This document shows positions 24,516 through 40,006 of a stretch of DNA of 64,000 nucleotides, in pieces. Made by a program: the position numbers and the translations under genes. The stretch spans positions 1 through 64,000 of the forward strand of contig NC_011898.1 of the NCBI RefSeq assembly GCF_000022065.1. Direction: 5' to 3'. This stretch comes from Ruminiclostridium cellulolyticum H10. GTDB taxonomy: Bacteria > Bacillota > Clostridia > Acetivibrionales > DSM-1351. Each line of letters begins with the position of its first letter. Positions within the stretch are counted from its first letter, which is position 1. The notes beneath the pieces are model-generated. The model saw nothing but the letters and a program-made list of their open reading frames with translations. It ran no database searches and had not been told where the DNA came from.

Positions 24516-26117
24516 ATGTGGTTTAATGAATTTTTATCAAAATACAAATCAGGTATATCCCATGAGTTCCTGTTTTATTTCAATGTAAAGGACACTATGG
24601 ATAATACAAGGAATTTTTTCAGATATATAGATGACGAATTTATAAAGCAGAGAAATTTCGGAATAGTAGCCTTTTATGATATTTCCAGAGGCTTAACTTT
24701 TCTGGCCCCTGAAATGGAAAGGGAATTTAAAAAGATTGCCGGCAATGAGGCATCCAAACTGTTTTTTTCGTTGCCGTCCAGAATTTTTCCTTTTATAGAT
24801 ATTGCTCTTAAAAGCACAAAAATGGCACTGTTTATAGACCATGCCGAAAAAATAGTGCCTTCAGGTGATATTGGAAGTATGACTCTTGAAGAGAGGATGG
24901 CTCTTATATGGATGACGGAATGGTCTGTTAATTCAAAGATTTCATCCGTTGGCAGTACTATATTTATGCTTGCAGACAACCTTGCTGATATAAGCCGTGA
25001 ATTTTTGAACTCTTCCTACAGAATAGAGCCTATACTAGTGGAACTTCCGGGGGAAGACGAAAGAAAAAACTACATTGAATTTCTGCTTCAAGACAAATCT
25101 ACTTCGTCTGAAATCTCTATTGACGAGTTTGCAAAGCTTTCATCAGGACTTAGCAGGAAAAGTATAAAAGATATAAAGTTAAAGGCAGAGGCAGAAGGTG
25201 TACCTATTACTTTTGATTTCATAAAGGAAAAAAAACACGGGGTTTTACAAAAGGAATACGGAGATGTCCTTGATTTTATATATCCCGAGATATCTTTTGA
25301 GGATATAGGAGGAATGGAAGCTGCTAAAAGCTATCTAACTAAGAATATAATAGAGCCTATTAGAAGAGGTGACTCAAGAAGAGTCCCCATGGGAATACTG
25401 TTATGCGGACCGTCAGGAACGGGAAAAACGTTATTGGTTGAGGCATTGGCAAAATCAAGCGGATTTAATTGTGTAAAGATAGATATGTCCCGGATATTGG
25501 GTCAATATGTAGGTGAAAGTGAAAAGAACTTCAAAAAATGTTTGCTGGGTGCTAAATCACAGGAACCTGTTATAGTTTTTGTTGATGAAATTGATACCGC
25601 TTTCAGAAGAGGCGAATCCGGTGACAGCGGTGTGAGCAGGAATATTTTCAGTGAATTTTTACAATTTACAAGTAATACAAATAATAGGGGGAAAATAATT
25701 TTTATTGCTGCAACAAACAGGCCTGACCTCTTGGATGCTGCCTTGAAAAGGGCGGGAAGATTTGATAAGAAAATACCTGTACTTCTACCTGAAAAAGAGG
25801 AACGTGCCGAGATTTTCAGAATAATTATTAAGAAATACGGAATTAATACTGATATTCAGGATTTTGTTCCATATTCCGAAATGGCTGAAAACTACACCGG
25901 AGCGGAGATAGATACAGTTGTCAGGAAAGCATATGAATTGGCCTGCAATATGAAGGAAAATCATCCTGTTATTACAGATACCATCCTAAAAGAGGCTCTT
26001 AAAAAGTGTCGGCCAAGTACTCAGGAGATAGAATTCATGACAGAACTTGCTATTGCAGAATGCGATGATATTGATCTGCTTCCGGAAAAATATTGGCCCA
26101 GGTTTGATAGGACTTAG
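24516..26117 (+). CDS. Tandem AAA+ ATPase, first domain degenerate (Ycf46/CDC48-like)
   Basis: A 533-residue protein. Residues 1-200 look like a worn AAA domain: there is no P-loop, but ALFIDHAEK (104-112) resembles Walker B and IFMLADN (149-155) resembles sensor 1. Residues about 255-500 are a complete classic AAA domain of the FtsH/CDC48 type: SFEDIGGMEAAK, Walker A GPSGTGKT (298-305), Walker B VIVFVDEID (352-360), ATNRPDLLDAAL and arginine fingers RAGRFD. The layout matches chloroplast Ycf46-like ATPases. No protease or membrane segment is present. It precedes pspA, which suggests a role in membrane-stress remodelling. Substrate unknown. Confidence 0.85.
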   Translation: MWFNEFLSKYKSGISHEFLFYFNVKDTMDNTRNFFRYIDDEFIKQRNFGIVAFYDISRGLTFLAPEMEREFKKIAGNEASKLFFSLPSRIFPFIDIALKSTKMALFIDHAEKIVPSGDIGSMTLEERMALIWMTEWSVNSKISSVGSTIFMLADNLADISREFLNSSYRIEPILVELPGEDERKNYIEFLLQDKSTSSEISIDEFAKLSSGLSRKSIKDIKLKAEAEGVPITFDFIKEKKHGVLQKEYGDVLDFIYPEISFEDIGGMEAAKSYLTKNIIEPIRRGDSRRVPMGILLCGPSGTGKTLLVEALAKSSGFNCVKIDMSRILGQYVGESEKNFKKCLLGAKSQEPVIVFVDEIDTAFRRGESGDSGVSRNIFSEFLQFTSNTNNRGKIIFIAATNRPDLLDAALKRAGRFDKKIPVLLPEKEERAEIFRIIIKKYGINTDIQDFVPYSEMAENYTGAEIDTVVRKAYELACNMKENHPVITDTILKEALKKCRPSTQEIEFMTELAIAECDDIDLLPEKYWPRFDRT

Positions 26118-26264
26118 GCCGATAATATATGGTATTTTATAAATAAATATTTACATTACTGTGTTTTTATTATAAATTTAAAGTATCTTATATCGAGTTC
26201 ATAAATTTTATTTTAATTTAGTAGGAAAAATAGTATTTATATACTTTTAAGGAGGAATAGGATA

Positions 26265-26996
26265 ATGGGTTTATTTAGTAGACTGGGACAAATGTTTAGA
26301 GGATTTTTCGGTTTATTTGTTGGAAATCTTGAAGAAAGAAATCCTGAAGCATTGTTTGAGGATATAAAGAACCAGATAGACAAAGCAAGGCGTCAGGCTG
26401 AGCAGCAAATTATTGAAATTCAAACAAGTGCCGAAATGATCAAAATAGAGATGAAAACAGCCGAGAAAAATCTTATTGCTATAAAAGCAAGGGTTGAGTC
26501 TGCACAAAGGGTCGGAGATAAGGAGCTTCTGGTTGAACTTCTGGTTCAGGAAGAGGAATATCAGACTGTATATGAGACTCATAAAGCAACCTATGAAAAC
26601 GCAATGGTGCAGGTTGAAAAGATACGTGAAGACTACAAGATTTTTGAATCTGAGATGAACGGAAAACTCAATGAATTGAAAACTCTTAAATCACAGGCCA
26701 AAATGGCTAATCTCCGTGAAAATATCAACTCTGTTAATGCACAGTACACCTCAAAGAACAGTCGTGTGGGCAATGTAAACGACAGTCTTGACAGGGCACG
26801 TGATATCGTGAATAAAAAGACTGCAAGAGCGAATGCAGTGGAATCACTTAATCAGGATAATCTGGATATGAAACTTAAAAAGTTGGATATGAATTCCGCA
26901 AGAGATAGGGCAAGAGCAAGGGCAGAAGCACTTCTCGGAGGAGATAACGGTGGATTTGAGGTCAAAGAAAAAACCGATAACAAGATATCAAACTAA
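26265..26996 (+). CDS. pspA: PspA/IM30 family membrane-stress protein
   Basis: A 243-residue, nearly all-helical protein with the PspA layout: N-terminal amphipathic region MGLFSRLGQMFRGFFGLFVG, then long coiled-coil helices (NPEALFEDIKNQIDKARRQ, then EEYQTVYETHKATYENAM). ESCRT-III-like PspA proteins polymerise on damaged membranes. No PspF, PspBC or LiaFSR genes are near. Instead an AAA+ ATPase precedes it and a GNAT enzyme and a membrane coiled-coil protein follow. AAGGAGG lies 8-14 bases before the ATG. The 147-base upstream gap suggests its own promoter, which I could not define. Confidence 0.9.
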   Translation: MGLFSRLGQMFRGFFGLFVGNLEERNPEALFEDIKNQIDKARRQAEQQIIEIQTSAEMIKIEMKTAEKNLIAIKARVESAQRVGDKELLVELLVQEEEYQTVYETHKATYENAMVQVEKIREDYKIFESEMNGKLNELKTLKSQAKMANLRENINSVNAQYTSKNSRVGNVNDSLDRARDIVNKKTARANAVESLNQDNLDMKLKKLDMNSARDRARARAEALLGGDNGGFEVKEKTDNKISN

Positions 26997-27020
26997 TTTA
27001 ATGAATAAGGATAGTGCAAA

Positions 27021-27515
27021 ATGGATACACATATTAGAGAAGCAATAGAAGAAGATTTACCCAAGATTACAGATATTTACAATTGGGCTATTAAAAATAC
27101 TACTGCTTCATTTGATATAAACCCGCAAACCATAGAGCAACGAGCTGTATGGTTTTCCCATTATGGGGGTGACCGCTTTCCTTTAATTGTATATATAGAA
27201 GATGGAGAGGTTGCAGGTTACGCAAGTCTTTCTGAGTTTAGGACGAAGGAAGGCTACAAAAACACCTGTGAGCTGTCTGTATATGTACAGCCTGATTTTC
27301 AGAAGCAGGGTATAGGAAAAAAACTTATGGATTATATCATACAGCTTGGGAGAGATGTGGGGTACCATAATATTATTTCATGTATTACAACGGATAATAT
27401 AATAAGTATTCAAATGCACGAAAAAAAAGGTTTTAAGCTATGCGGTGAATTGAAGGAGGTCGGGTATAAATTTGGAAGGTACCTTGATTGCCTTTTTTAT
27501 CAGCTTTTGCTATAG
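27021..27515 (+). CDS. GNAT N-acetyltransferase, phosphinothricin-acetyltransferase-like
   Basis: A 164-residue GNAT enzyme. N-terminal IREAIEEDLPKITDIYNWAIKNTTASFD is characteristic of the Pat/YwnH group that acetylates phosphinothricin or methionine sulfoximine/sulfone. The acetyl-CoA motif is VQPDFQKQGIGKKLMDYII (Q/RxxGxG/A). The C terminus CITTDNIISIQMHEKKGFKLCGELKEVGYKFGRYLD completes the fold. The natural substrate is not known. It lies 24 bases after pspA and 30 before the next gene, so it is probably co-transcribed, although its job there is unclear. Confidence 0.85.
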   Translation: MDTHIREAIEEDLPKITDIYNWAIKNTTASFDINPQTIEQRAVWFSHYGGDRFPLIVYIEDGEVAGYASLSEFRTKEGYKNTCELSVYVQPDFQKQGIGKKLMDYIIQLGRDVGYHNIISCITTDNIISIQMHEKKGFKLCGELKEVGYKFGRYLDCLFYQLLL

Positions 27516-27545
27516 GAATAATTTTTTATATGAGCAGAGGGAGTC

Positions 27546-28373
27546 ATGAATTCTAATTTATTTGTCAGTGCACTTTTAAGATTCAGAAATTTTTCAACTT
27601 TACTAATATGGACAGCTATAGTCAACCTTGTTAGCGGAAATGGCCAGGTTCAGAATATGATTGCGTCTCAAACCGCCGATTACTCCTTAGTTCTTGCAGG
27701 GGCTTACGGAACGGGGGTTTTGGTGTACGTTGCTATGGTTATGCAAAGCATGTTCAGCAACAACTACAAGGAGGAAGTTAAACGGAAGGAAAAGAGAAAA
27801 GAAATTAATGATCTGAATCGACAATGCAACAGGCTTTCCGTACAGGCAAGGAACTATGGAAACCCGATTCAGAAACAAAAATTAAGAAAAATAATGCAGG
27901 ATAAAAACGATATTTTTAACTCTCAAAAACGAGGCGATGAATACAGCTATCTTAAAGAAAAAATAGTTGAACAGAGCCTGAAGCTTGTTATTTCCTATAC
28001 AAAGCTTATGATGAATTATTCAATCAGAAGCAAGGAATTATCTGAAATTAATATCAATCAATTGATGAATAAAATCAATGCAAACCGCAGGAAGATAAGT
28101 TTTATGAAAGATGACAGGATGCTTGATGATATTAACAATGTTATAGAAATGGATGAAAAGGCAATACAAAGAGTCAAGGATGAAAGGAACGAGTTAGAAA
28201 GAATTCATGCTAGACTTGACTATATAGAAAGTATGTTGAATATGTTCAAACATCAAATAATTTCAAGCATCGAATCAGAAGAAATGGTTGAAAAATTAGA
28301 GACAGCTGTGAACGAGGCAACAGCGCTTGACAGCGTGTTACAAGAAAGAAGAAGAAATCAGATAAGTTTGTAA
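27546..28373 (+). CDS. Unknown membrane protein with long coiled coil
   Basis: A 275-residue protein I do not recognise. It has two hydrophobic segments near the N terminus (about 16-30 and 46-69), then about 200 residues of charged helical sequence with coiled-coil character (KEEVKRKEKRKEINDLNRQ; ERIHARLDYIESMLNMFKHQ). No catalytic motif is visible. Both ends of the hairpin may be cytoplasmic. Its place between pspA and fapA and its shape suggest a membrane-tethered partner of the PspA polymer, but that is inference. GAGGGAG lies 6-12 bases before the ATG. Confidence 0.7.
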   Translation: MNSNLFVSALLRFRNFSTLLIWTAIVNLVSGNGQVQNMIASQTADYSLVLAGAYGTGVLVYVAMVMQSMFSNNYKEEVKRKEKRKEINDLNRQCNRLSVQARNYGNPIQKQKLRKIMQDKNDIFNSQKRGDEYSYLKEKIVEQSLKLVISYTKLMMNYSIRSKELSEININQLMNKINANRRKISFMKDDRMLDDINNVIEMDEKAIQRVKDERNELERIHARLDYIESMLNMFKHQIISSIESEEMVEKLETAVNEATALDSVLQERRRNQISL

Positions 28374-28446
28374 TACAGACTGAGAGTGAGATAATTTAGA
28401 CAACCGGCATTTGTAGCGTTTTATATGAAACCAAGGGGGATTTCAA

Positions 28447-30024
28447 ATGTCAGTAAATATCGCTATCTATTCTTCTCCGTACATTAGCATAACGCAGCGG
28501 GATGATGGGTATTACATACAGTCCTTTAAAAAAGGATTGAGTATAGATGAGTTTCAAAAAATTCTTAATTCACATCCCGAAATCAAAGTGACAAATTTCA
28601 CAACAATAAAAAATGCACTTGTACTGGCACCACAAGACCCCAGAAGATTTGCCAGTGCAAAAGAAAGAATAAGCATTGAAGTATCCGGAGATGAATTGAG
28701 GGCTTTTGTGACCGTTAATGTAGGGCAACCAGAAGTTTTAGGGACAGAAATAGTAAAAGAGGTAGTTCTTGAACTAAACCGTAGAGGTGTTGTCTATGGT
28801 ATTAAAAAGGACGTGCTCTTAAATTTGGTTGCCGGAAAAACGGTACTAATAGCTGAGGGTGAACCTCCTCAGAATGGTGTCAATTCCCAGAACAGATTAT
28901 ATCAAATAAAAGAAGCTAAACCGGAAATTAAAGAAGACGGTACTGCGGATCACTATGACCTTAACCTTATAAACATGGTATCTGCGGGAGAGTGGCTAGG
29001 TGAAAAAATCCATGCTACTCCGGGAAAAGAGGGAAAAACCGTATACGGTAATCCCATAAAACCTCTACCCGGTAAGGACTATCCGATTTTTTTTGATCGT
29101 AAAACAGTAAAAGCAGTAGAGGAAGAGGGCAAGACAACTCTATACGCTACGAGGAATGGAGCAGTTTACTTTGCAGGTGATAGCATAAGTGTATCCAATC
29201 ATTTAGAAATTGATGAAAATGTAGGAGTTAAAACCGGGAACGTTGATTTTGACGGCTACTTAACCGTTAAAGGAACAATTGAGGATAACTATACTGTCAC
29301 TACTACAAAAGATATCGAAGTACTAAGTGACTACGGTGTGGGAAGTTGTAAAGAAATAAGCAGTCGAGAGGGTAGTATTTACATAAGGGGCGGTATAGCC
29401 GGTAAAGGTAAAACTGTTATAAAATGCAAAAAAAATCTATATCTGAAATTTGTTGCTGATGCAGAAATAATTTGTGATGGAAGCGTACATGTAGGATTTT
29501 ACTGCCTAAACAGCAATATTATAGCCAAGGAAGTCATTTTGGAATCGCTGAAGGGTCAGATAATAGGCGGAAATATAACAGCAGATATAAGGGTGCTTGC
29601 AGCTACATACGGTACTCCAAGCGAGAAAAGAACTAACATTTGTGTAAAAGGGTTTGATAGAATTGCTCTTAAAGATTCACTTGAACAACTGGTACAGGAA
29701 ATAGATCAACTCAAAACTTCCATGAATCAATATAAACAACAAATTTCTATTTTTAACATATCAGATGCCGTAAAATCAAGGAAAAGCGAGTATGAAAAGC
29801 TTAATGAAAATTACAACAATATAAGAGCTGAGTTGCAGGTAAAGGAGGAGTTAAGAAAGAATATAGCAGGCTATCTTAAAGTCAAGGGAGAAGGAGAAAT
29901 TTCAATTCTTAAAAAGGCTTTTCCAAATACCTTTTTTGAAATTAAGCGAATCCAGAAGGAAATTCAGACACCTATACTTAGAACAAGCTTTTACTATAGC
30001 GAAGGCACGATAAAAGAACTATAA
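28447..30024 (+). CDS. FapA (DUF342) family protein
   Basis: A 525-residue protein with the FapA layout: an N-terminal region, an extended DUF342 beta-helix-like middle (GEKIHATPGKEGKTVYGNP; NVDFDGYLTVKGTIEDNYTV; SYIRGGIAGKGKT-like turns; IIGGNITADIRVLAATYGT) and a C-terminal coiled coil (EQLVQEIDQLKTSMNQYKQQ). FapA proteins are named from flagellar assembly loci, but no flagellar gene is here. Polymer-like DUF342 folds relate to bactofilin-type scaffolds. AAGGGGGA precedes the ATG. It precedes the triple-GAF gene by 45 bases. Confidence 0.85.
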   Translation: MSVNIAIYSSPYISITQRDDGYYIQSFKKGLSIDEFQKILNSHPEIKVTNFTTIKNALVLAPQDPRRFASAKERISIEVSGDELRAFVTVNVGQPEVLGTEIVKEVVLELNRRGVVYGIKKDVLLNLVAGKTVLIAEGEPPQNGVNSQNRLYQIKEAKPEIKEDGTADHYDLNLINMVSAGEWLGEKIHATPGKEGKTVYGNPIKPLPGKDYPIFFDRKTVKAVEEEGKTTLYATRNGAVYFAGDSISVSNHLEIDENVGVKTGNVDFDGYLTVKGTIEDNYTVTTTKDIEVLSDYGVGSCKEISSREGSIYIRGGIAGKGKTVIKCKKNLYLKFVADAEIICDGSVHVGFYCLNSNIIAKEVILESLKGQIIGGNITADIRVLAATYGTPSEKRTNICVKGFDRIALKDSLEQLVQEIDQLKTSMNQYKQQISIFNISDAVKSRKSEYEKLNENYNNIRAELQVKEELRKNIAGYLKVKGEGEISILKKAFPNTFFEIKRIQKEIQTPILRTSFYYSEGTIKEL

Positions 30025-30069
30025 ACACAATCACTGCAGCAAAGTTTAATTGTTGGGAGGTTAGAGCAT

Positions 30070-31995
30070 ATGAAATACCAGTCAATACTACAAAGGCTTG
30101 AAGATGAGAAGAGAGATGAAGTTTTATCTGCAAAATTATATAGGTATACCGGACTAATGCAGGCTATAGAGTACTTTTCACAAAAACTTGTGTTTAAACA
30201 GATAATTGAGGCTGCTTTTGATTTTATAAATGAATTGTTGCTTGTAAACAACTCTATAGTGTATGTTCTTGAAGAGGGTAAATACACTGCCAAGAAGGTT
30301 AAGGGTTTTAAAGATTACCCAAAAGAAATAGAAGCCACAAGTACACTTGAGAACCTTGCTGCTTTATATGGAAATGTCCTGTATGAAAAAGATAAAATAG
30401 CCAGGTTTTTTGACATGGAAATGGTTTCAAATATGGGTATAAATGCCGTAGTGCCTCTGATTATAGAAGAACACCTATATGGTTTTATAATGATAAATGG
30501 AAAGGATTTTGTAGATGATGAGTATATTATATCAGAGTCCCTGATGCGTCTTATAAATACTGCCCTTGAAAACTACAGCAGATATGAGAAACTGGCTAAA
30601 GTAAATAAGGAGCTTGATGAAAAGGTATTTAACCTTTTTGCAATAAATCAGTCATCAAAGGTATTGCTAAGTGAATTACGAATCAATACTTTATATAACT
30701 TGTCTGTAGAATTATTTTCCGAATTAACAAGGAGTATGGTCACAAGCTTTATTTTATATGATGAAAGAAGTGGAAGATATGTTTTAAAGGGTTTTAAGGA
30801 TGTTTTTTACAAGATTAAGGATGCTTTTATTAGTCTTTCTCTTAATCAAACCTACAAAATTGATCCTAATAAGGTTATTATAGATCTAGGAAATCCAGAT
30901 GACAGTCATTACTTTTACAATCTGTTTGAAGATTCTGCTATTCAGGTAGATAAACTTGAGGCAAAGTATATTGTCATAATTATAAAAGAAAGTGAGATTC
31001 TTGGTTTTGTCACTTTGAGTAAAACCGTTACTGGTGACAATTATAGCAGCGGTGTATTTGAACTTATAGAAAGCCTTGCTTCATCAATGTATATTGCTGT
31101 AAGCAACGCTAATCTATTTAAACAGGTAAATGAGCAGAAACAAATTATTCAAAGAAAGTTGGATAAACTTATTTGTTTGAATAAATTAATAAAAAATATA
31201 AGCAGTTCATTAAGGATAGATACACTTATGGAAGTTGCAGCTAAAACCCTTGAAATTTCTTTTAATTTGCAAAAGGGACTGCTTTGTCTTTATGATAAGG
31301 ACTCAGATGAGTTTAGTATATCGGAATCAATCGGTTTAGACGGTAATTTAAACAAAAACATACTCCCAAATAACAAATGGAGGCGTGTTTTTGAGGGTGA
31401 CTGTGTTTATGAAATCGGGAAGGATAAAGTAGCCGAATATATTGGATATGAGGTAGCTGAAAGGGTCGGTGAGGCTCAGGGAATACTAATTGTACCTATA
31501 TATGTAGATACTTTGGAAGTTGAGCTGTCGGGAGTAATTATTATTTTCAAGTACGATGGTTTGCTTTTAGATAATGAAGAAAATCTTATAACTCTTGAAA
31601 CAATTGCAGGACACATAGCCCCGGTGTTAAAGAATCTATCGGTTATTCAGATGCAGCAGCGGTTCATGCTGCCGAATTTTATAGAACTCTTCAAAAATGA
31701 GTTAAAGGGTGAAATCAGGGATGCAATGGATTATAATATAAACTTATCGGTTATACAGGTAGAGGATAAAAGAGATTTTATTTTCAAAGGTACAAGTATT
31801 ATTGATAGTATAAAAGAGAACTTCAAAAAGGTTTATCCATTTTCATATAACAATGTATTTATTATTGAAAATGAAGACGAAAATATTGAAGAGCGTATAA
31901 AAAGATGTACGGGAATTTCTGATCTAAAAATCAGGAAGATGGTCCTAGGGAAGGACTTTAAAGATTTTGCAAATTTCTTTGATCTTTTCAGATAA
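30070..31995 (+). CDS. Multi-GAF-domain sensory protein without output domain
   Basis: A 641-residue protein built from at least three GAF-like regions: about 20-180 (FDFINELLLVNNSIVYVLEEGKYTAKKVKGF), about 200-350 (ELTRSMVTSFILYDERSGRYVLKGF) and about 370-530 (ISFNLQKGLLCLYDKDSDEFSISESIGLD). Helical linkers join them. No kinase, cyclase, phosphodiesterase, HTH or sigma-54 domain follows; the C-terminal 110 residues are short and unassigned (GIRD-type, perhaps a degenerate GGDEF). GAF domains bind small molecules or cyclic nucleotides, but the ligand is unknown. TTGGGAGG lies 10-17 bases before the ATG. Confidence 0.75.
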   Translation: MKYQSILQRLEDEKRDEVLSAKLYRYTGLMQAIEYFSQKLVFKQIIEAAFDFINELLLVNNSIVYVLEEGKYTAKKVKGFKDYPKEIEATSTLENLAALYGNVLYEKDKIARFFDMEMVSNMGINAVVPLIIEEHLYGFIMINGKDFVDDEYIISESLMRLINTALENYSRYEKLAKVNKELDEKVFNLFAINQSSKVLLSELRINTLYNLSVELFSELTRSMVTSFILYDERSGRYVLKGFKDVFYKIKDAFISLSLNQTYKIDPNKVIIDLGNPDDSHYFYNLFEDSAIQVDKLEAKYIVIIIKESEILGFVTLSKTVTGDNYSSGVFELIESLASSMYIAVSNANLFKQVNEQKQIIQRKLDKLICLNKLIKNISSSLRIDTLMEVAAKTLEISFNLQKGLLCLYDKDSDEFSISESIGLDGNLNKNILPNNKWRRVFEGDCVYEIGKDKVAEYIGYEVAERVGEAQGILIVPIYVDTLEVELSGVIIIFKYDGLLLDNEENLITLETIAGHIAPVLKNLSVIQMQQRFMLPNFIELFKNELKGEIRDAMDYNINLSVIQVEDKRDFIFKGTSIIDSIKENFKKVYPFSYNNVFIIENEDENIEERIKRCTGISDLKIRKMVLGKDFKDFANFFDLFR

Positions 31996-32426: not shown

Positions 32427-32452
32427 AGTATACATTTCGTTGGAGGTTGTGT

Positions 32453-33592
32453 GTGAAACAGGTGTCGTTTATACATACAGCGGATATACACCTTGATGCA
32501 CCTTTTTCGTCACTGGGAGATAAGGAAAAAGCGGATATCCGGAGGCAGGAACTGGAAGACGGTCTTAAAAACATAATTGATAGAGTAAGAATTCAAAATG
32601 TAGATTTATTAATAATAAGCGGGGATTTTTTTGAGGACAGCCACATAAGGGGTTCTACAATAATCGGAGTTAAAAACCTGTTTTCAGAACTTTACGGAAC
32701 AGAGGTTATAATTATTCCGGGAAATCACGACCCTTTGAAAGAAAACTCATTTTATCACACCATAGGTTGGGGTGAAAATGTACATATTCTTACGGATTCG
32801 AATCAGGTATTGTTCTTAAAAAAGTGCAATACCTGTATTTATAACATGGGGGCAATCGGTAATGTAGCAGGGGATTTTTCAAATATTAAGGAAAAAGATA
32901 TTTCAGCTGACACATTCAACATATTGGTTTTTCATGGTACGATTGATATGCCTTTTGAGGAAAGTAATTATAATTCCATAGGATCTAAGGACATTTTTGA
33001 ACTGGGCATGGATTATGTTGCCCTTGGTCACATGCACAATTATATCAGGTTTCAGAACAGGACAAGCTTAATGATAAACCCGGGAAGTCCTATACCAATG
33101 GGCTTTGATGAAGAGGGAGTACACGGCTTTATTCAGGGAAAGATAATGTATACAGATGATAATAAAAAACTTGTAGAAGCGGATTTTGTGCCATTTTCCA
33201 GTAGAAATTACTATAACATAGAATTGGATGTTACTGGGTGTAACAGAAATGAAGAAATTATTCAAAAATTATCAACGGATGATAACATAAATTTTTCTAA
33301 TAAGGATTTATATAGTCTTACTCTAAGAGGATTTATTCCAAAGGATTTTACACCTGATATAAAGTATTTAATGGAGTTATTAAAAAATAAATGTTTTTAT
33401 GTAAGGATAAAGAACGAAACTTCAATTCAGTTTGATTATGAACAGTATCTTGAAGACCCCGGCATAAAGGGTGAGTTTGTCAGGATGCTTATGGATATGC
33501 AGGAAAATGAAGATTCACAAGATAGGAAAGAGATTTTGTACATGGCTATACAGTATGGGCTGCAGGCCATGGAAAACAACAGGGTAGACTGA
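32453..33592 (+). CDS. yhaO: YhaO-type metallophosphoesterase (SbcD-like)
   Basis: A 379-residue calcineurin-like phosphoesterase. The metal-binding motifs are HTADIHLD (near the start), SGDFFED, IPGNHDP, VFHGT and ALGHMHNY, in the order of Mre11/SbcD nucleases. B. subtilis YhaO pairs with YhaN, and the same pairing is here: the ATPase gene starts 20 bases downstream. GTG 32453 is 6 bases after GGAGG. A true SbcD is encoded separately at 55.9 kb, so the two systems coexist. Confidence 0.85.
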   Translation: MKQVSFIHTADIHLDAPFSSLGDKEKADIRRQELEDGLKNIIDRVRIQNVDLLIISGDFFEDSHIRGSTIIGVKNLFSELYGTEVIIIPGNHDPLKENSFYHTIGWGENVHILTDSNQVLFLKKCNTCIYNMGAIGNVAGDFSNIKEKDISADTFNILVFHGTIDMPFEESNYNSIGSKDIFELGMDYVALGHMHNYIRFQNRTSLMINPGSPIPMGFDEEGVHGFIQGKIMYTDDNKKLVEADFVPFSSRNYYNIELDVTGCNRNEEIIQKLSTDDNINFSNKDLYSLTLRGFIPKDFTPDIKYLMELLKNKCFYVRIKNETSIQFDYEQYLEDPGIKGEFVRMLMDMQENEDSQDRKEILYMAIQYGLQAMENNRVD

Positions 33593-33612
33593 CAGGGGGA
33601 TATTTACCGGGT

Positions 33613-35607
33613 ATGAAAATCAAAAGGCTCCATGTAAGGGGATTTGGTAAGCTTCAGGATTTCAATTGTGATTTTTCAGATGGTTTGAATGTAATATATG
33701 GACATAATGAGAGCGGTAAATCAACTCTTATGGCGTTTATAAAGGCCATACTGTATGGAGTTAAGGGCGGAAGAACCGGTAAAAACGGTGTGTTGCCTGA
33801 CAGCAGGAGATATATGCCATGGAACAGCAGCCAGTACGGCGGGTACATGAATATTGAGTTGAATGATGGCTGTTTATACAGGATTGACAGAAATTTTTTA
33901 ACCAATGAAGTAAACATTTTTGATTCTTCTTTTAACGATATCTCTGTAAATTTTATTGACGGAAGGGATATAAATAGTGTTGGTGAAAAGCTGGTAGGAC
34001 TTAATGAAAGCCTTTTTGAAAGAACTGTTTTCATTAAGCAGATGGGAACCAGGATTGATACTTCAACGTCAAAAGACCTTGTGGACAGAATCTCAAATAT
34101 TCAGCAGAGTGGATTTGAGGATATATCATATATAAAGGCACAAAATGCTCTTAAAGAGGCATTAAAGCGTCAGGTTGGAACAGATAGAAGTTATACAAGG
34201 CCACTGGATATTATAAATCAACGTTTGGCCGAATTACAGGAGAAAAAGATTAACCTGTTGAATGAAGAAAAAAGGCTTGAGGAATTAAGGGAAAAACAGC
34301 AGGATATATCTATGAAAATTAATGAATTAAAGTTTAAGTACAGACTTCTAAACAGGATAATTGATTATTGCAAGCTTAAGGAAAGACTACAATTCCTAAA
34401 TGAAAAAAATGAAGAAATATACTTTCTTGAAGAATCTGCCCGTCAGGTGCAAGAAAATATTACTAAGCTTGAGGAGGATAAAAAGTCAGTAATACTTCAT
34501 TTAAATAACAATCAAGTGGCCAGGGGTAAAAAGTTAAGATCAATAGATGTATTCTTGATGATATGTATTACTGCAACGTTAACAGTAGGTTTAGCAGCAG
34601 TTGTTTTTAACATTTTGAGTCCTTTATTTACCTTGATACCTTTCTTACCAGCCTTAGCCTCTCTTGTTCTTAGGATAGGGATCGTAAAGAGAGAAGAAGA
34701 AGAGTTTAAAACAAACAAGACAAAAGAATTAAATCGCCAGCTTTTAGAGTTTGATGAAAGAATAACTCAAAATAAGACTCAGTATCAAAAACTTACAGAC
34801 AGAATTGAAAATATTAATACTGTTGTTGGATCGGAGGTTCCGGCAGTTCTTGAAAGTAAAATTGTGGGCGATTACATCAATATTATGAGGGATAAACAAA
34901 ATGTAGAAGACCAACTTACTCAAAATGAGAAAGAACTCATTGATGAGCTTTCCAAGGATTCACATGGTAGTTTGTTGGTAAAGGCTTTCAGTATAAATAA
35001 AACTGTTATTCTCGATCTTCAAAGATTGGAGGATGAGTATAGTGAAGTCGCACGTATGGTAGAAAACGGGAATAATATAAGTATATCTGATATTGATAAT
35101 GAGATAAGCAGGTTGAGCAGTCAGAAAAAAAGTTTGGAGTCAAAAGGAGAAGCTCTCAAAATTGCGATAATTACATTGGAGGCAGCGGCAGAGCAGGTTA
35201 GGAAAAAATACGTACCTTTAATGAACAGGGTATTAAATAGTACCTTTTCTAATCTTACGTCTAAAAAGTACAATGATGTAAGAACGGGAGATAATCTCAA
35301 AATTATGTTGGATAACCCGGAAACACAAACTCTTGTTCCTGTTTCAACATTAAGTGATGGTACAATAGACCAGATATATCTTGCATTAAGGGTTGCAATA
35401 TCGGAGACAGTTCTTCAAAATCATGAGTGTATGCCGTTTATAATGGATGAGCCATTTGCACAGTATGACGATGAGAGAACATTTAACGCACTAAAATATA
35501 TAGCCCATATAAGCAATAAACAACAGGTAATCATTTTTACCTGTAAAAAGAGGGAAGTTGAACTTATTAGTAGCGAATTCCCTTGTAAAATCTGTTCATT
35601 GACATAG
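33613..35607 (+). CDS. yhaN: YhaN-type SMC-like ATPase with a membrane hairpin
   Basis: A 664-residue SbcC/Rad50-like protein. Head half one: IKRLHVRGFGKLQDF and Walker A GHNESGKST (30-38). Head half two: a signature-like LSDGTIDQIYLALRVA (about 575) and Walker B MPFIMDEPFAQYD (about 604). Coiled coils separate them, and where SbcC has its zinc hook there is instead a strongly hydrophobic stretch (about 305-357, VFLMICITATLTVGLAAVVF and LFTLIPFLPALASLVL) with the look of two membrane helices. No CxxC hook is present. It is probably the ATPase partner of the preceding phosphoesterase, anchored at the membrane. Confidence 0.85.
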   Translation: MKIKRLHVRGFGKLQDFNCDFSDGLNVIYGHNESGKSTLMAFIKAILYGVKGGRTGKNGVLPDSRRYMPWNSSQYGGYMNIELNDGCLYRIDRNFLTNEVNIFDSSFNDISVNFIDGRDINSVGEKLVGLNESLFERTVFIKQMGTRIDTSTSKDLVDRISNIQQSGFEDISYIKAQNALKEALKRQVGTDRSYTRPLDIINQRLAELQEKKINLLNEEKRLEELREKQQDISMKINELKFKYRLLNRIIDYCKLKERLQFLNEKNEEIYFLEESARQVQENITKLEEDKKSVILHLNNNQVARGKKLRSIDVFLMICITATLTVGLAAVVFNILSPLFTLIPFLPALASLVLRIGIVKREEEEFKTNKTKELNRQLLEFDERITQNKTQYQKLTDRIENINTVVGSEVPAVLESKIVGDYINIMRDKQNVEDQLTQNEKELIDELSKDSHGSLLVKAFSINKTVILDLQRLEDEYSEVARMVENGNNISISDIDNEISRLSSQKKSLESKGEALKIAIITLEAAAEQVRKKYVPLMNRVLNSTFSNLTSKKYNDVRTGDNLKIMLDNPETQTLVPVSTLSDGTIDQIYLALRVAISETVLQNHECMPFIMDEPFAQYDDERTFNALKYIAHISNKQQVIIFTCKKREVELISSEFPCKICSLT

Positions 35608-35659: not shown

Positions 35660-36586
35660 ATGAGAAAACATTTAATTATATATATTTTTGCTGTTACAAC
35701 AGCTATTATCTTAACATTGGCAGGATGTGGTAATAGGGACATTCCTGTCACAAAAAATGAACAATACGTAAGCGGTATTACTTGGGATAATGCTGCGATT
35801 ATAAATGACGCCGTTGTTGATGTATTCAGCCGTAATGACATTCTGAGTACAAGGATAACACAGGCTCTTTTTAACCAGATTGTAAAGATTGTTTCTCAAG
35901 AAGGCTCATGGACCAGGATTATGTTGCTGGATGGAACTACGGGGTGGGTTAAGACCAAATACATTAGTAGGGACACAAGTTGCGTTACCGACGGAAGTAT
36001 TAACAACAAAATAGTTGTAACGGCCAAAACAGTGTATGTTTACATAGGAACCGACAACGACATTAAATACAAGCAGGTAGTTCTGGGAACAGAACTTTAC
36101 TCTGTGAGTAAAACAAAAACAGGTTATGATGTCCTTCTTCCCAATAATAAAAAAGGCTGGGTTGAGGATGGCGGAGTTATAGCCGTTCCCGTTTCACAGA
36201 ACAGTATACCCAAAACTTCTGCACAAGGATTTATACAAACCGTCAGTAAATTTGAAGGAACCATATATATAATAGGAGGTGTCAGCAGGTGGGGTATCGA
36301 CTCCCCGGGTTTATGCTATATCAGCAGTAGGATTAACGGTGTGGAAATACCCCGTAATATCAAGGAGATGGCAAAGACGGGGACAGGTGTTACGCTTGAC
36401 GAAATGAAACCCGGAGACCTTCTTATGTTCAGTACGGACAATGTAAAAAAGGACGTCTCTGGTGTAGGGGTTTACAAGGGAAACAACGAATTTATTCATT
36501 CTAGCCCTTCCAGGGGTGTTGTAACTGATTCCTTGGAGGACAGCTATTACAAAAATCGAATAGTTGATATAAGAAGGATTTTCTAG
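35660..36586 (+). CDS. Lipoprotein with SH3-like repeats and a degenerate NlpC/P60 domain
   Basis: A 308-residue lipoprotein: signal peptide with lipobox LAGC (Cys23), two SH3b-like segments (about 53-103, ending TTGWVKTKYIS; about 122-170, ending KKGWVEDGG), and a C-terminal NlpC/P60 fold (about 190-308). The usual catalytic DCSG reads DSPG (214-217), and the usual HVGIY reads GVGVY (268-272), so both the Cys and the His are lost. It is therefore probably a non-hydrolytic peptidoglycan-binding protein. It ends 5 bases from the convergent glycosyltransferase gene. Confidence 0.82.
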   Translation: MRKHLIIYIFAVTTAIILTLAGCGNRDIPVTKNEQYVSGITWDNAAIINDAVVDVFSRNDILSTRITQALFNQIVKIVSQEGSWTRIMLLDGTTGWVKTKYISRDTSCVTDGSINNKIVVTAKTVYVYIGTDNDIKYKQVVLGTELYSVSKTKTGYDVLLPNNKKGWVEDGGVIAVPVSQNSIPKTSAQGFIQTVSKFEGTIYIIGGVSRWGIDSPGLCYISSRINGVEIPRNIKEMAKTGTGVTLDEMKPGDLLMFSTDNVKKDVSGVGVYKGNNEFIHSSPSRGVVTDSLEDSYYKNRIVDIRRIF

Positions 36587-38614: not shown

Positions 38615-40006
38615 ATGGCTGAAAATGGCTTTCATTTAAATGATAGAAGAAGATCATGGGCAGTACCCCTTGCAATAGTAGCAATACTAGCCTTAGTTGG
38701 AGTATCCCTATGGGGATATTATCAGAACAGGCAGTTAAAAAGGTTGCAGGTTCTGATGACGAACCAGTATAACAGAGCTTTTGTAGATTTGTCTGATTAT
38801 GTTGATAACGTTGAGACTCTTATGGCAAAATCTCTGGTAACATCAACACCTGTAAGTACATCGAAGATGCTGGAGGAGGTGTGGAGACAAGCAAATCTTG
38901 CACAAACAAATATGGGACAGCTTCCGATAGCACCTCCAATACTTGAAAAGACATCTAACTTCCTTACACAAGCGGGAGATATGGCGTACTCTCTTAATAA
39001 CAAGACCATGAATGGAATCCCGTTGAATGACAAAGAATATGGTGCTTTGCAAAAGCTTCATGGATATGCAGTTTCCCTCCAAAAGAACCTGCATGGAATC
39101 GAAGATCAGATTACTAATGGGAAAATGACATGGGATAAATATACCAACAAGGGTAAATTCATGGTGGCCTCGACGTCAAAAGACCCAAAAACAGGTCAGT
39201 TTGAGAATATTGATAAGACCTTTCAGGAGTATCCTACTCTTATATATGATGGTCCTTACTCAGACCATATGCTTAAATCAAAGCCTCAGGGCTTAGGCGA
39301 TAAAAAAGTATCTGTTTCAGATGCCAAAAATATTGCTATAAACTTCATAGGTAAGAATAAAGTAAGTGATGTAAAGCAGTTGGAAAACAATGACCTTGGG
39401 AATATTAAAACTTACAGGTTCAAGGTTATGTATAAGGATCGTAAGGAAAGCGAGTATGCAGAGGTTGAGGTTACTCAGCAAGGAGGACAAGTTTACCTTA
39501 TGCTTAGTAACAGGAATATCGGTAAGGATACTGTAAATATGGGAAAAGCAAAGAAGCTTGCAAAAGATTTCTTGGACTCAAAGGGCTACAAGAATATGGT
39601 AGATACCTACTACCAGAAGGTTGATGGTACAGCTGTAATAAGCTATGCATACAAGCAGGGCGGTGTAATTGTTTATCCTGATCTTATTAAGGTAAAAATA
39701 GCATTGGACAACGGAGAAATAATAGGTATTGAGTCAAAGGGCTATCTTTATAACCATAGGGTGAGAACTATTCCTAAAACTAATATTACTCTGGAACAAG
39801 CACGTGCCAAGGTTAATAATAAGATTAAAATTGACAGGCAGGGTGAAGCTATTATTCCCACCAATTATAAGACAGAAAAATATTGTTACGAGTTTATGGG
39901 GAAGGTGAACGGGCGTAATTTTATTATTTATATTAACGCCTTAACCGGGGCTGAAGAGGATGTATTAATGCTGGTAACGACGCCTGAAGGTACACTTACT
40001 ATGTAA
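38615..40006 (+). CDS. ypeB: Germination protein YpeB
   Basis: A 463-residue protein with one N-terminal membrane anchor (about 16-34), a helical region (about 40-190) and C-terminal PepSY-like repeats (GKDTVNMGKAKKLAKDFLDSKGY; ITLEQARAKVNNKIKID). YpeB keeps SleB stable and inactive in the dormant spore and is cleaved at germination; the two proteins depend on each other. AAGGAGGT-type ribosome-binding sequence ACGGAGGTGA (38600-38609) precedes the ATG. Confidence 0.95.
   Translation: MAENGFHLNDRRRSWAVPLAIVAILALVGVSLWGYYQNRQLKRLQVLMTNQYNRAFVDLSDYVDNVETLMAKSLVTSTPVSTSKMLEEVWRQANLAQTNMGQLPIAPPILEKTSNFLTQAGDMAYSLNNKTMNGIPLNDKEYGALQKLHGYAVSLQKNLHGIEDQITNGKMTWDKYTNKGKFMVASTSKDPKTGQFENIDKTFQEYPTLIYDGPYSDHMLKSKPQGLGDKKVSVSDAKNIAINFIGKNKVSDVKQLENNDLGNIKTYRFKVMYKDRKESEYAEVEVTQQGGQVYLMLSNRNIGKDTVNMGKAKKLAKDFLDSKGYKNMVDTYYQKVDGTAVISYAYKQGGVIVYPDLIKVKIALDNGEIIGIESKGYLYNHRVRTIPKTNITLEQARAKVNNKIKIDRQGEAIIPTNYKTEKYCYEFMGKVNGRNFIIYINALTGAEEDVLMLVTTPEGTLTM

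Follow-up and report, generated by a model that had tools for sequence, protein, structure and literature searches.

How bacteria take apart the coats formed by PspA, a family of proteins known to bind membranes and to polymerise through an amphipathic first helix, is the question raised by a locus of Ruminiclostridium cellulolyticum H10. The stretch of DNA analysed here, termed the window, comprises the first 64 kb of this one-contig genome of 4,068,724 bases. It harbours six consecutive open reading frames (ORFs) on the plus strand, encoding in order a tandem AAA+ ATPase (AAA), PspA, a GNAT acetyltransferase, a protein predicted to be membrane-anchored and helical (CC), FapA (DUF342) and a GAF-domain protein, with intergenic gaps of 147, 24, 30, 73 and 45 bp. 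An earlier interpretation made from the letters alone, referred to below as the sequence-only reading, had described six consecutive genes with mostly short gaps, and all six ORFs are indeed present. Across related genomes the stable unit is formed not by six genes, but by three: AAA, PspA and CC constitute a real and conserved module, of which the ATPase is a candidate answer to the question of coat disassembly. If this is true, the locus would encode a bacterial machine devoted to disassembling PspA, a counterpart of ESCRT-III and Vps4.

The available text of a 2023 review (PMC7615534) describes bacteria as having no clear Vps4 homologue, and Liu 2021 (PMC8281802), also available in part, leaves open whether any ATPase fills the part of Vps4 for PspA and Vipp1. 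Ravi 2024 (PMC11237479), again consulted as a partial text, describes PspA alongside a protein in which the first of two AAA+ domains is inactive, and suggests that membranes are remodelled at the expense of ATP, as by Snf7/Vps4. That gene pair is of the kind found here and the proposal is the one made here, so neither the AAA-PspA pair nor its Vps4-like interpretation is new. The available portion of that paper yielded no joint absence of the genes, no description matching CC and no mention of the PspA tail motif described below, and it is this motif, along with the three-gene unit and its joint absence, that is new here. The paper refers to Snf7 homologues that have a transmembrane segment and to a PBPB-OmpA protein, possibly the CC family. 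Among the papers listed by literature searches on PspA with AAA ATPases, Ravi 2024 was present but experiments on the pair were not; among those listed for this locus, none dealt with its expression or with earlier work on it, judged by title or opening of the abstract, although one on Clostridium proteomics (PMC7797090) mentions phage shock; and a term search of the accessible text of Popp 2022 (PMC9239133) found no mention of clostridia.

A conserved unit of three genes

The distribution of the genes was surveyed in 58 genomes of the host's order, using a threshold of E<=1e-30 for AAA. AAA and PspA were each found in 53 genomes, CC in 51, the GAF protein in 25 and FapA, which has several paralogues per genome, in 57. 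The complete trio of AAA, PspA and CC is present in 51 of the 58, at a single locus in each, and every genome bearing CC has all three. The remaining seven consist of four that lack the whole trio (G045, G046, G047 and G056), one with PspA only (G055) and two in which contigs end inside the locus (G025 and G052). AAA adjoins PspA in 52/52 order loci with both genes, at a distance of 73-441 bp, and PspA and CC are neighbours in 51/51, with GNAT lying between them in 16 (the window being included in both counts). The loci compared with the window number 53 (L077-L129, the last from G055).

The other three genes come and go, and are not part of the core. At the 53 loci formed by the window and L077-L128, two of which break off at the trio where their contigs end and cannot show these genes, GNAT separates PspA from CC in the 16 cases already mentioned, FapA lies 3' of CC in 25 and the GAF gene then follows in 16. 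The GAF gene adjoins a FapA gene in all 25 order genomes that have it.

Beyond the order, 391 genomes of the class were searched with cut-offs of E<=1e-60 for AAA, E<=1e-6 for CC and E<=1e-10 for PspA. AAA and CC occurred in an identical set of 25 genomes, 19 from the order and six from outside it, all of which also have PspA, at 61-100% identity; nine further genomes have a PspA at 33-42% identity. Among the six carriers outside the order, the three genes stand in a row in four and AAA is on another contig in two. When species genomes were scanned with the AAA alignment, in a pattern-seeded search, 47 loci were recovered: 45 share 60-94% identity and the other two are distant. Related records include Ruminiclostridium, Acetivibrio, Pseudobacteroides, Anaerobacterium and Herbivorax; AEY64321.1, the example given by Ravi and colleagues, is presumably from the genus of the window.

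The trio is also absent as a unit. In 4/4 genomes missing all three genes, ispE, gntR and acpS follow one another in a row, with 0.1-1 kb from gntR to acpS, and in three of the four they are followed by the presumptive yhaO and yhaN genes. At this place G055, by contrast, retains a PspA gene flanked by gntR and acpS, but neither AAA nor CC. In a midpoint-rooted tree of the three flanking genes (25 rows), the trio-lacking genomes nest inside the carriers with weak deep support, a pattern favouring loss of the trio.

A putative tag at the C-terminus of PspA

PspA of the window (243 aa; 26265..26996, plus strand) matches PF04012 at 42.7 bits against a curated cut-off of 33.9, in agreement with the identity first assigned to it, and is the sole PspA match in this genome. 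The same family was matched by 41/41 aligned PspA proteins at E<=0.001, the orthologue at L090 scoring just under the cut-off, at 33.5, when scanned singly. A hydrophobic moment of 0.59 over the first 18 residues, a value computed from sequence only, points to an N-terminal amphipathic helix. The family match stops at residue 221. In E. coli, according to the accessible part of PMC6003685, the whole protein stops at residue 222, short of an extension seen in the PspA of genomes carrying AAA and CC. This extension consists of a linker of 6-7 residues, mostly variable (residues 223-229 in the window, 26931..26951), followed by GFEV[KR]E[KR] (GFEVKEK, residues 230-236, 26952..26972), and was found in 56/56 proteins, 50 from the order including the window and six from outside it. 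Three loci had been left out of this count beforehand: L101 (contig end), L125 (frameshift) and L129 (without AAA and CC).

The motif was first seen in the alignment of the order and then tested outside it, where it occurs in 6/6 carriers and in 0/10 PspA proteins, from nine genomes, without AAA and CC, whose tails were read by eye; when L129 is added to these ten, it is absent from 11/11 such proteins examined. Among the 55 sequences fitting the search expression there are 36 different DNA spellings, the 56th reading FEVRER, and the flanking positions vary more. At L103 (L103:3979-4764), PspA carries the motif three times, in 27-bp repeat units that now agree at 21-22 of 27 bases yet keep F/L-E-V-K-E-K/R, and the protein at L122 has a second, diverged copy. 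A search for FEVKEK across the 58 order genomes found 54 encoded sites, 49 of them in the PspA of 48 genomes and five elsewhere (reading frames unchecked); a control pattern with the motif reversed had 26 matches in the same genomes. The varied DNA spellings, the drifted repeats that keep the motif and these counts suggest a short binding motif under selection, and we read it as a docking tag whose role would be comparable to that of the MIM of ESCRT-III.

The tandem ATPase

AAA (533 aa; 24516..26117, plus strand) has an apparently degenerate N-terminal half and an intact C-terminal ATPase. Motifs were examined in 47 of the 53 orthologues available. Walker A, Walker B, an aromatic pore loop (GQYVGESE) and sensor 1 were present in 47/47, and the arginine-finger motif in 46/47, so that the second domain is intact as first proposed; no Walker A was found within the first 250 residues of any of the 47. 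The Pfam AAA family matches residues 294-422 of the window protein (E 2.8e-39), and the active module (residues 256-504; 25281..26027) is related in sequence to both ATPase domains of an archaeal VCP-like ATPase. The protein is closest to the CDC48/VCP type, yet falls below the curated NCBIfam cut-offs.

Mean column identity among the 47 sequences is 82% overall, 78-83% in the N-terminal half and 93% in the core. Since a conserved but non-catalytic half adjoins a working motor, the N-terminal half (residues 1-250; 24516..25265) may serve as a binding module, and is a candidate receptor for the tail of PspA.

An anti-phage function, raised by PADLOC matches to IetA and TRIP13, was considered and rejected, the matches covering the common ATPase domain only. 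Although 26 phage records match AAA, none does so over 80% of its length, and the five listed have 27-32% identity; CC and PspA had no match among plasmid records, and PspA none among phage records.

The CC protein

CC (275 aa; 27546..28373, plus strand) was described in the sequence-only reading as an unknown membrane coiled-coil protein; scans of domain libraries assigned it to no known family. Membrane-type helices are predicted at residues 13-31 and 46-70, followed by a helical bundle at 72-274, and the structure model (pLDDT 85) likewise shows a membrane-anchored helical bundle with no clear relative. The family is less conserved than AAA, with a mean column identity of 51% across 48 sequences. 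A Foldseek comparison of the model with the PDB placed designed helical proteins and CAMP factors at the top, with BAR-type bundles after them; the 50 matches listed include no ESCRT-III chain, which excludes nothing. The idea that CC is itself a relative of PspA was set aside, profile comparisons having shown no similarity, and Snf7 was not among the Pfam matches of the 48 members at E<=0.01. Of the CC paralogues found elsewhere in the order, that of L264 has minC-minD-minE and genes for M23 and M50 peptidases (Pfam) as neighbours, and those of L262 and L265 have a solute-binding/OmpA protein alongside.

A possible mechanism and its alternatives

The ATPase had been put forward as a good candidate for the remodeller of PspA, and the adjacency of the genes, the identical species sets of AAA and CC, the joint absence and the conserved tail all fit that proposal. 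Binding of the AAA+ protein PspF by the C-terminal part of E. coli PspA (PMC6003685, in the text available) offers a precedent. We consider it an even bet that AAA, PspA and CC form an ESCRT-III/Vps4-like membrane module in which AAA remodels PspA by way of the tail tag. In such a module, for which we infer both the binding and remodelling steps and the identity of the tag's partner, PspA would polymerise on the inner face of the membrane via its amphipathic first helix, its C-terminal extension displaying the GFEVKEK tag. The tandem ATPase would bind this tag, most probably by its inactive N-terminal half, and the active half would then pull PspA subunits through the pore, leading to disassembly or remodelling of the coat. 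CC, held by its two N-terminal membrane helices, might position the ATPase, PspA or both at the membrane. A remodelling function of this kind, partly published already, is plausible. More tentatively, and probably claiming too much, the locus might embody a recruitment code of its own, in which the tag is read by the inactive half of a CDC48-type tandem ATPase that dismantles PspA coats at sites marked by CC, and which evolved apart from the MIT-MIM system.

Several observations weigh against remodelling of PspA by AAA via the tag. The 19 Pfam families listed for the window ATPase at E<=0.1 include neither MIT nor Vps4_C. Of the 34 class genomes in which PspA was matched, nine are without this ATPase. 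The AAA and CC families also have other lives, since both occur without PspA: the two distant AAA relatives, at 33-34% identity in an Acidobacteria metagenome-assembled genome and in Fusibacter tunisiensis (L218:7974-9644 and L219:7992-9551), have neither PspA nor CC in the stretch examined, which for F. tunisiensis ends 0.9 kb after the gene, and CC paralogues are found in 11 order genomes (L261-L266, for instance L264:4874-5668), the six loci examined being without PspA or AAA nearby. Within a wider family of ATPases, the trio looks like a specialisation of clostridia. Furthermore, in the PspA tree (42 rows) the carriers amount to essentially a single clade, the carrier label requiring only one or two changes, and the link between the motif and AAA and CC thus rests on very few evolutionary events, one or two. 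With poorly supported deep branches and a midpoint root, the flanking-gene tree does not discriminate firmly between loss of the trio and its never having been gained. Finally, evolutionary rates across 21 genomes gave a partial correlation of 0.78 between AAA and CC, but 0.71 for the control pair of AAA and YhaO.

An alternative partner for the tag is CC. PspA would then be tethered to the membrane by CC, which looks membrane-anchored by prediction, and the ATPase would act on CC or on a PspA-CC complex; as AAA, CC and the tag are present and absent together, presence and absence cannot separate the two partners. The near-invariance of the tag is matched better by AAA, at 82% mean column identity, than by CC, at 51%, and CC has paralogues where there is no PspA. 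We regard this arrangement as rather unlikely.

The relation might also be reversed, with PspA inhibiting or holding the ATPase until membrane stress frees it for another client. A precedent exists in E. coli, where PspA inhibits the AAA+ protein PspF, partly via its C-terminal part (PMC6003685, in the text available). The ATPase here is nearest CDC48/VCP and not the enhancer-binding type, however, and its conserved pore loop would be expected of a protein that threads substrates; nor is there a sign of other clients with the exact tag, the non-PspA sites of FEVKEK being far outnumbered by matches to the reversed control. A reversed relation therefore appears improbable.

That the genes are mere neighbours in a stable chromosomal block, without joint function, gains from ispE, gntR, acpS, yhaO and yhaN recurring side by side at many of these loci, which makes adjacency alone weak evidence. 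Yet the ispE-gntR-acpS row persists in genomes without AAA, PspA and CC, the species sets of AAA and CC are identical, and the PspA tail tracks both, which leaves this explanation very improbable.

Barely credible is the six-gene envelope-surveillance module of the sequence-only reading, in which GAF would sense a ligand, FapA act as scaffold and GNAT modify: the expected order holds in 11/11 genus genomes and also at L089 and L092, but GNAT is at 16/53 loci, GAF in 25/58 order genomes and the FapA-GAF pair apart from the trio in nine of these 25, and the six-gene unit was rejected on this distribution.

The preferred reading, remodelling of PspA by AAA via the tag, makes the question of a bacterial remodeller testable, because the tag is short and deletable and because G055 keeps at the same locus a PspA without the ATPase, CC or the tag; the host, a cellulolytic clostridium, is harmless.

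Relation to known systems

Archaeal and eukaryotic ESCRT-III with Vps4/CdvC resembles the trio in combining a polymer of the same superfamily, whose subunit bears a short tag at its C-terminus, with an adjacent AAA+ ATPase. It differs in that the ATPase of this locus is without Pfam MIT or Vps4_C and is a tandem protein with an apparently inactive first half, and in that the tag here is GFEVKEK. Similarly, in the PspF-PspA system of E. coli, PspA is partnered with an AAA+ protein and its C-terminal part contributes to binding (PMC6003685, as far as its text was available), whereas PspF is a transcription activator and the ATPase here is CDC48/VCP-like. The YdjFGHI and LiaIH systems of B. subtilis share a PspA-type protein with membrane-bound partners (PMC11237479, available in part), but unlike them the six proteins have no band-7, TPM, LiaI or LiaF domains. 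PspF, PspB and PspC were not found among the six proteins and four flanking ones scanned, and the absence of PspF, PspBC and LiaFSR first noted holds among the six.

Facultative neighbours and flanking genes

GNAT (27021..27515) and FapA (28447..30024), both on the plus strand, are facultative neighbours outside the core whose assignments are borne out by Pfam. The GAF protein (30070..31995, plus strand), also facultative, had been thought to have three GAF domains: the first is supported, by a GAF_3 match at residues 42-168, and the second and third are not, no GAF match of the window protein lying outside these residues. GAF families were the sole Pfam matches in 9/9 orthologues scanned, and profiles searched against the PDB had no significant match (best E 0.12). 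Both the observations and the interpretation of the sequence-only reading are accordingly upheld in part.

The stretch 5' of pspA, looked at for a promoter of its own, is partly conserved within the genus. Between gntR and AAA, an opposite-strand ORF of 68-69 aa, HMA-like (heavy-metal-binding) by eye, is found at L083, L089, L094, L096, L113 and L115, and a MobA-like nucleotidyltransferase, also identified by eye, lies between gntR and the trio at L090, L094 and L113. In the window, acpS is followed on its 3' side by a phosphoesterase and SMC-type ATPase pair (32447-35607), which we take to be YhaO/YhaN-like, and close downstream are genes for an NlpC/P60 protein (35660-36586) and the sporulation protein YpeB (38615-40006).

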